Origin: Roseibium sp. TrichSKD4
GTDB taxonomy: Bacteria > Pseudomonadota > Alphaproteobacteria > Rhizobiales > Stappiaceae
Direction: 5' to 3'
Assembly: GCF_000148725.1 (NCBI RefSeq)
Contig: NZ_GL476300.1
Location: 142,813-184,236, forward strand
Length of the DNA stretch: 41,424 bases
A program made the translations under genes and the position numbers. The notes under the pieces are model-generated. The model did no database searches and was not told the DNA's origin. It saw only the letters and a list, made by a program, of their open reading frames with translations. Below are positions 40,993 through 41,424 of this stretch, one piece after another (position 1 is the first letter of the stretch; every line of letters starts with the position of its first letter).

Positions 40993-41032
40993 CCGTTGGT
41001 CAGACTTCAGAACTTAGAAAAAAGCAGGGCCG

Positions 41033-41424
41033 GATCCCCCACACTGGTACTGAGACAGGGACCAGACTCCTACGGGAGGCAGCAGTGAGGAATATTGGTC
41101 AATGGTCGGAAGACTGAACCAGCCATGCCGCGTGCAGGAAGAATGCCTTATGGGTTGTAAACTGCTTTTATATGGGAAGAATAAGGTGTACGAGTACATT
41201 GATGACGGTACCATATGAATAAGCATCGGCTAACTCCGTGCCAGCAGCCGCGGTAATACGGAGGATGCGAGCGTTATTCGGAATCATTGGGTTTAAAGGG
41301 TCTGTAGGCGGGCTATTAAGTCAGGGGTGAAAGGTTTCAGCTTAACTGAGAAATTGCCTTTGATACTGGTAGTCTTGAATATCTGTGAAGTTCTTGGAAT
41401 GTGTAGTGTAGCGGTGAAATGCTT
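41033..41424 (+). rRNA. 16S rRNA internal fragment of Bacteroidetes type, truncated at both ends
   Basis: The region corresponds roughly to E. coli 16S positions 310-695 (V3-V4). Conserved landmarks are GATCCCCCACACTGG, ACTCCTACGGGAGGCAGCAG, GTGCCAGCAGCCGCGGTAAT and AGCGGTGAAATGC. The signature GAGGAATATTGGTCAATGG, CATGCCGCGTGCAGGAAGA and CATTGGGTTTAAAGGGT are those of Bacteroidetes, probably Flavobacteriia; alphaproteobacteria have GTGGGGAATATTGGACAATGG instead. The 5' third of the gene is missing, with no promoter or leader before it. One unusual base is present (GAGACAGGG for GAGACACGG). This cannot be the native rRNA of the organism encoded by the rest of the window. Confidence 0.95.

Follow-up and report, generated by a model that had tools for sequence, protein, structure and literature searches.

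A Bacteroidota 16S rRNA fragment joined to a Roseibium-like chromosome segment at the end of a 41,424-nucleotide record is most likely an artefact

Features of the locus

The window, i.e. the whole stretch of DNA analysed here (41,424 nucleotides), contained a Stappiaceae chromosome segment that began upstream of dnaA and extended into the intergenic region following a gene for a Cys-rich repeat protein, and directly behind it a 392-base piece of a Bacteroidota 16S rRNA gene reaching the end of the record. The relevant features are as follows.

1893..41032, strand not given: Roseibium-like chromosome segment (Stappiaceae) that begins upstream of dnaA and ends in the intergenic region after the Cys-rich-repeat gene (block order in Roseibium sediminis, protein match of the last gene, 13/16 bases behind it)
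38372..40066, + strand: ETF-ubiquinone oxidoreductase (ETF-QO), the anchor for finding relatives (Pfam PF05187 and PF21162; 94% identical to R. sediminis)
40591..40992, + strand: Cys-rich repeat protein, the last alphaproteobacterial gene before the join (Pfam PF00839, found on the ORF starting at 40498)
41017..41032, + strand: run of A and the first arm of a stem, presumably of a terminator, interrupted by the join (13/16 identical to R. sediminis)
41033..41036, + strand: GATC at the join, within GGATCC at 41032-41037 (sequence and 16S alignment)
41033..41424, + strand: Bacteroidota 16S rRNA fragment (RF00177 at 302.6 bits, tree, Persicobacter match)

The Pfam analysis of the chromosome segment detected dnaA, both subunits of glycyl-tRNA synthetase, quinolinate phosphoribosyltransferase and other ordinary genes. 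The start of the Cys-rich-repeat gene was set at the inner ATG at 40591, the mechanically called ORF beginning at 40498. No tRNA was found in the window by ARAGORN.

Comparison of the chromosome segment with Roseibium sediminis

The original prediction had proposed comparing the proteins of the left part with known genomes, and comparisons with relatives identified the segment as Roseibium-like. Fourteen blocks, all on the same (+) strand and in the same order, connected window positions 1893-40919 with a single contig of R. sediminis KCTC 52373 (C106, 161116 to 197549). The nucleotide identity in the matched blocks was 67-82%, indicating that the window comes from a species other than R. sediminis. 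Five further matches were located on other contigs of this genome, one of which covered 962 bases of the dnaA gene region at 67% identity and is perhaps a paralogue. The dnaA region of R. sediminis thus shares the block order of the window, beginning upstream of dnaA and reaching the Cys-rich-repeat gene; unlike the window, it has no match to the region of the IS5-type element (1-1892) and no 16S sequence behind the last gene.

When the open frames of the R. sediminis segment (stop-to-stop, at least 120 aa) were compared with the window, 90 of the 105 matched at an E-value of 1e-15 or better. More than one frame per strand was involved in only three of these 90, and each of the three overlapped a gene called in a different frame or on a different strand, so that none of the matched main genes looks frameshifted.

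The blastn match to R. sediminis stopped at 40919, and the stretch 40057-41036 was matched in seven of 45 genus genomes, among which R. sediminis alone was matched over more than 188 bases. At the protein level the homology continued through the last gene as far as its end at 40992, the Cys-rich repeat protein being 60% identical to its R. sediminis counterpart over residues 1-133. In 80 ETF-QO loci, sampled from 579 relatives, R. sediminis provided the only match to this protein at an E-value of 1e-5.

The 16S rRNA fragment at the record end

A comparison of the window end with the model of bacterial SSU rRNA (RF00177) gave a score of 302.6 bits (E 1.4e-92), far above the gathering threshold of 50 bits, and the match ran into the record end. 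The 392-base piece corresponds to an internal segment at approximately model positions 302-691 of 1533 and is not a full-length gene, as the model extends beyond it by some 300 positions on the 5' side and 842 on the 3' side. The last ~390 bases had already been described as an internal piece of a Bacteroidetes 16S gene, which agrees with these results, while the 5' part said to be missing, one third of the gene, is actually about one fifth. The Rfam match formally started at 40946; however, its first 87 bases were the end of the Cys-rich-repeat gene and the stretch behind it, that is, alphaproteobacterial DNA forced into the model, and a reading as 16S throughout was rejected. Genuine 16S homology begins at 41033.

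A search of 16S sequences with 41033-41424 had also been proposed as a check, and Bacteroidota plasmid records proved to be the best matches. The closest was Persicobacter sp. JZB09, with 85.7% identity over 99% of the piece, and the top 13 rows were all Bacteroidota (both among the best 60 of 532 records). No relative above 85.7% was found among the matches listed from the plasmid and phage collections. The phage collection, searched with 40901-41424, returned 14 records, in nine of which a 16S rRNA was annotated under the match, while the remaining five lacked such an annotation.

A tree was constructed with 19 references, comprising 16 of the listed matches and three of the four genome matches from the family; the fourth (L101) was omitted, as it had only 41 matching bases. 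The window piece together with all 11 Bacteroidota rows was split from all eight Proteobacteria rows with a support of 100/100. Below the phylum, no starred set of at most half of the tree rows contained the window piece, the Bacteroidota references consisting of plasmid records only. At the six columns cleanly splitting the two sets, the window agreed with Bacteroidota at five and with Proteobacteria at one. The identity to the three Stappiaceae 16S pieces was 73.5-74.7%, compared with up to 85.7% for Bacteroidota. A tetranucleotide comparison of the two sides of the join had also been proposed, but was rejected as uninformative, since an rRNA piece of 392 bases carries rRNA composition regardless of its origin.

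The record breaks off immediately behind TGTAGCGGTGAAATGC, a sequence that was invariant in all seven aligned 16S rows. Among 196 invariant columns the window showed a single mismatch, located at 41058, where it has G and all 19 reference pieces have C. This G is either a sequencing error or a rare variant, and the mismatch would suit a thinly covered contig end.

The junction at 41032/41033

In R. sediminis, the Cys-rich-repeat gene is followed by GAAAAAAACGGCGCCG, the start of a 12-bp stem-loop that we presume to be a terminator. The corresponding window sequence at 41017-41032, GAAAAAAGCAGGGCCG, was identical to these intergenic bases at 13 of 16 positions. When the 60 bases following the gene were shuffled 2000 times, no shuffle reached this identity. 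The homology past the gene end consists of 16 bases in a single pairwise alignment. The window lacks the second arm of this stem and continues with 16S sequence instead. On the other side, the alignment showed that 16S homology starts exactly at the GATC at 41033, just as the original prediction had stated, and the native 16S bases preceding this site are absent. With the stem cut and the 16S gene entered at GATC, the left piece thus breaks off within the presumed terminator, and the right piece starts in the interior of a gene. The corresponding 16S site reads GATC in 14 of the 19 references and GGTC in the other five.

No direct or inverted repeat of at least 10 bases was found in 40500-41424. 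Recurrence of this exact junction in another genome had been named as an observation that would contradict a ligation or assembly join. The 24-base junction gave no exact match in viral_contigs and none in genome_contigs, the latter being a weak null, as 16S sequences are hard to find in the genome sets: 16S was detected in none of three Roseibium genomes (nine of 14 controls were positive) and was matched in four of 61 family members. Nulls obtained with 16S queries in these sets therefore mean little. The 16S core motif was also sought behind the Cys-rich-repeat gene of R. sediminis, where none occurred within approximately 7 kb, and in the 80 ETF-QO loci (stretches of 5608 to 17692 bases, without N runs of 20 or longer), where none carried it.

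Origin of the join

These results led us to regard the record, with high confidence, as a technical chimera without cellular function, whatever the route by which it arose; most likely, the join is artefactual rather than biological. Part of a Stappiaceae chromosome (1893 to approximately 41032) would have been joined to 392 Bacteroidota bases during library making or assembly. The likeliest route would be a chimeric read or a merge with low overlap, connecting a contig that ended at the intergenic stem-loop with the 16S fragment; extension of the contig would then have halted in a highly conserved part of the 16S, a kind of sequence at which assembly graphs branch. The record end in the invariant TGTAGCGGTGAAATGC would suit such an assembly break or a library chimera. 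Two observations fit less well: a join exactly at GATC would be a coincidence if the chimera were a pure assembly error, and the matched genes gave no sign of poor assembly.

The GATC at the join suggests another technical route, namely the ligation of two Sau3AI fragments, giving a single chimeric insert in a cosmid, BAC or fosmid clone. The 16S homology opens exactly at this site, and the 392-base piece contains no other GATC, as would be the case for one small Sau3AI fragment; the total length of 41424 is also near that of a fosmid or cosmid insert, which is only suggestive. A complete Sau3AI insert is expected to have GATC at both ends, and fosmid libraries are usually sheared and blunt-cloned. 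Neither end of the record lies at GATC, however, as the sites begin at 213 and the join at 41033 is the last of them, although the record may have been trimmed. Moreover, GATC is the native sequence of the 16S gene at this place in most references. With 253 sites in 41424 bases, a random break would fall at GATC in approximately 0.6% of cases, but any of the 16 four-base palindromes could have been called remarkable; by our own estimate, chance alone should place about 16 in 256 breakpoints at some four-base palindrome. We therefore consider Sau3AI/BamHI cloning as a possible but weakly supported mechanism, one of the two routes. It is rather doubtful as the actual one, and whatever likelihood it has is a share of that given to a technical join, not an addition to it. 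As for the original prediction that two unrelated fragments had been ligated, the joining of unrelated sequences was borne out, whereas the involvement of Sau3AI/BamHI is conjectural.

A biological origin would require that a Bacteroidota 16S fragment had been transferred across phyla and inserted into a Stappiaceae chromosome, within the terminator stretch that follows the Cys-rich-repeat gene. The record is a single contiguous sequence, and the window species, which differs from R. sediminis at 67-82% identity, could differ at its own locus as well. On the other hand, the fragment is situated at the extreme end and is cut there, so that the far flank of any insertion would lie beyond the record. 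R. sediminis has no insert at the site, none of the 80 ETF-QO loci contained the 16S core motif, and the exact junction was absent from viral_contigs and, as a weak null, from genome_contigs. The repeat search, which was the sole check for mobile ends, likewise found nothing in 40500-41424. A real insertion is accordingly regarded as very improbable. That the 16S belongs to the alphaproteobacterium itself and was misread as Bacteroidota, as its position in an alphaproteobacterial record and the proteobacterial base at one splitting column might suggest, is regarded as refuted, because the tree keeps the piece on the Bacteroidota side, in agreement with five of six splitting columns and with the lower identity to the Stappiaceae pieces.

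Relation to known chimeric assemblies

The presumed technical join resembles the chimeric contigs and contaminated assemblies targeted by GUNC, as outlined in PMC8201837, in that one contig carries parts of different lineages. It differs from the cases outlined there in that its foreign portion consists of one terminal rRNA fragment and contains no protein genes, and gene-based lineage tests would therefore probably miss it. Mixed-lineage contigs and genomes occur frequently in public databases; the same source estimated that 5.7% of GenBank genomes are undetected chimeras. In a simulated assembly of shotgun metagenomes, 14 of 381 16S contigs were chimeric, and eight of these 14 involved just one contaminating read, in most cases aligned to highly conserved regions (PMC3384625). 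The chimeras described in that work arose between 16S genes, whereas in the window a 16S fragment is joined to unrelated non-rRNA DNA.

The join matters for data hygiene. If the record were named by its 16S, approximately 41 kb of alphaproteobacterial genes would be placed under Bacteroidota in databases, and genes mislabelled in this way could later mimic cross-phylum gene transfer. The original prediction had warned of such a misattribution, and the warning is reasonable. A genuine join would mean that an rRNA fragment had moved from one phylum to another.

The left end and internal islands

Everything before approximately 41030 had been predicted to be alphaproteobacterial. This is supported for 1893-41032 by the R. 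sediminis matches, while an origin of 1-1892 from this chromosome is uncertain, the stretch being flanked by R. sediminis matches on the right side only. This left region contains an IS5-type transposase upstream of dnaA (472-1813) that is split in two frames, a DUF772 part at 472-1383 and a DDE part at 1259-1813. In plasmid records, the element was found at 69.5-72.1% identity in Sinorhizobium and Mesorhizobium (best 12 of 232 records); its region had no match in the R. sediminis genome, where homology starts at 1893. The outermost stretch, 1-470, has a frame on the - strand at 34-465 with neither a Pfam match nor a match in the R. sediminis genome.

The largest gaps in the blastn comparison with R. 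sediminis were 1-1892, 3759-5783, 28958-29664 and 34700-36045. Additional joins were considered, but at the latter three the flanking blocks keep their order and strand, so that insertion or divergence explains the gaps better. R. sediminis is shorter than the window by approximately 1.2 kb between the blocks at 3758/5784 and by approximately 1.3 kb between those at 34699/36046. In the first of these regions, the blocks are separated by approximately 2.0 kb in the window and 0.8 kb in R. sediminis. It includes a gene at 3772-4389 with the winged-helix domains HTH_32 and HTH_33 (Pfam), which we presume may be part of an IS630-type element.

The region 34700-36045 is an AT-rich island, with a GC content of 0.42 for 35001-36000, and R. 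sediminis has 78 bases between the corresponding flanking blocks. Two decayed copies of a repeat of approximately 60 bases were recognized in the island, near 35368-35429 and 35846-35904. They are possibly, as a guess, remnants of an array of repeated gene-end cassettes. On a further contig of R. sediminis, C50, relatives of the first copy occur twice, with a spacing of approximately 1 kb.
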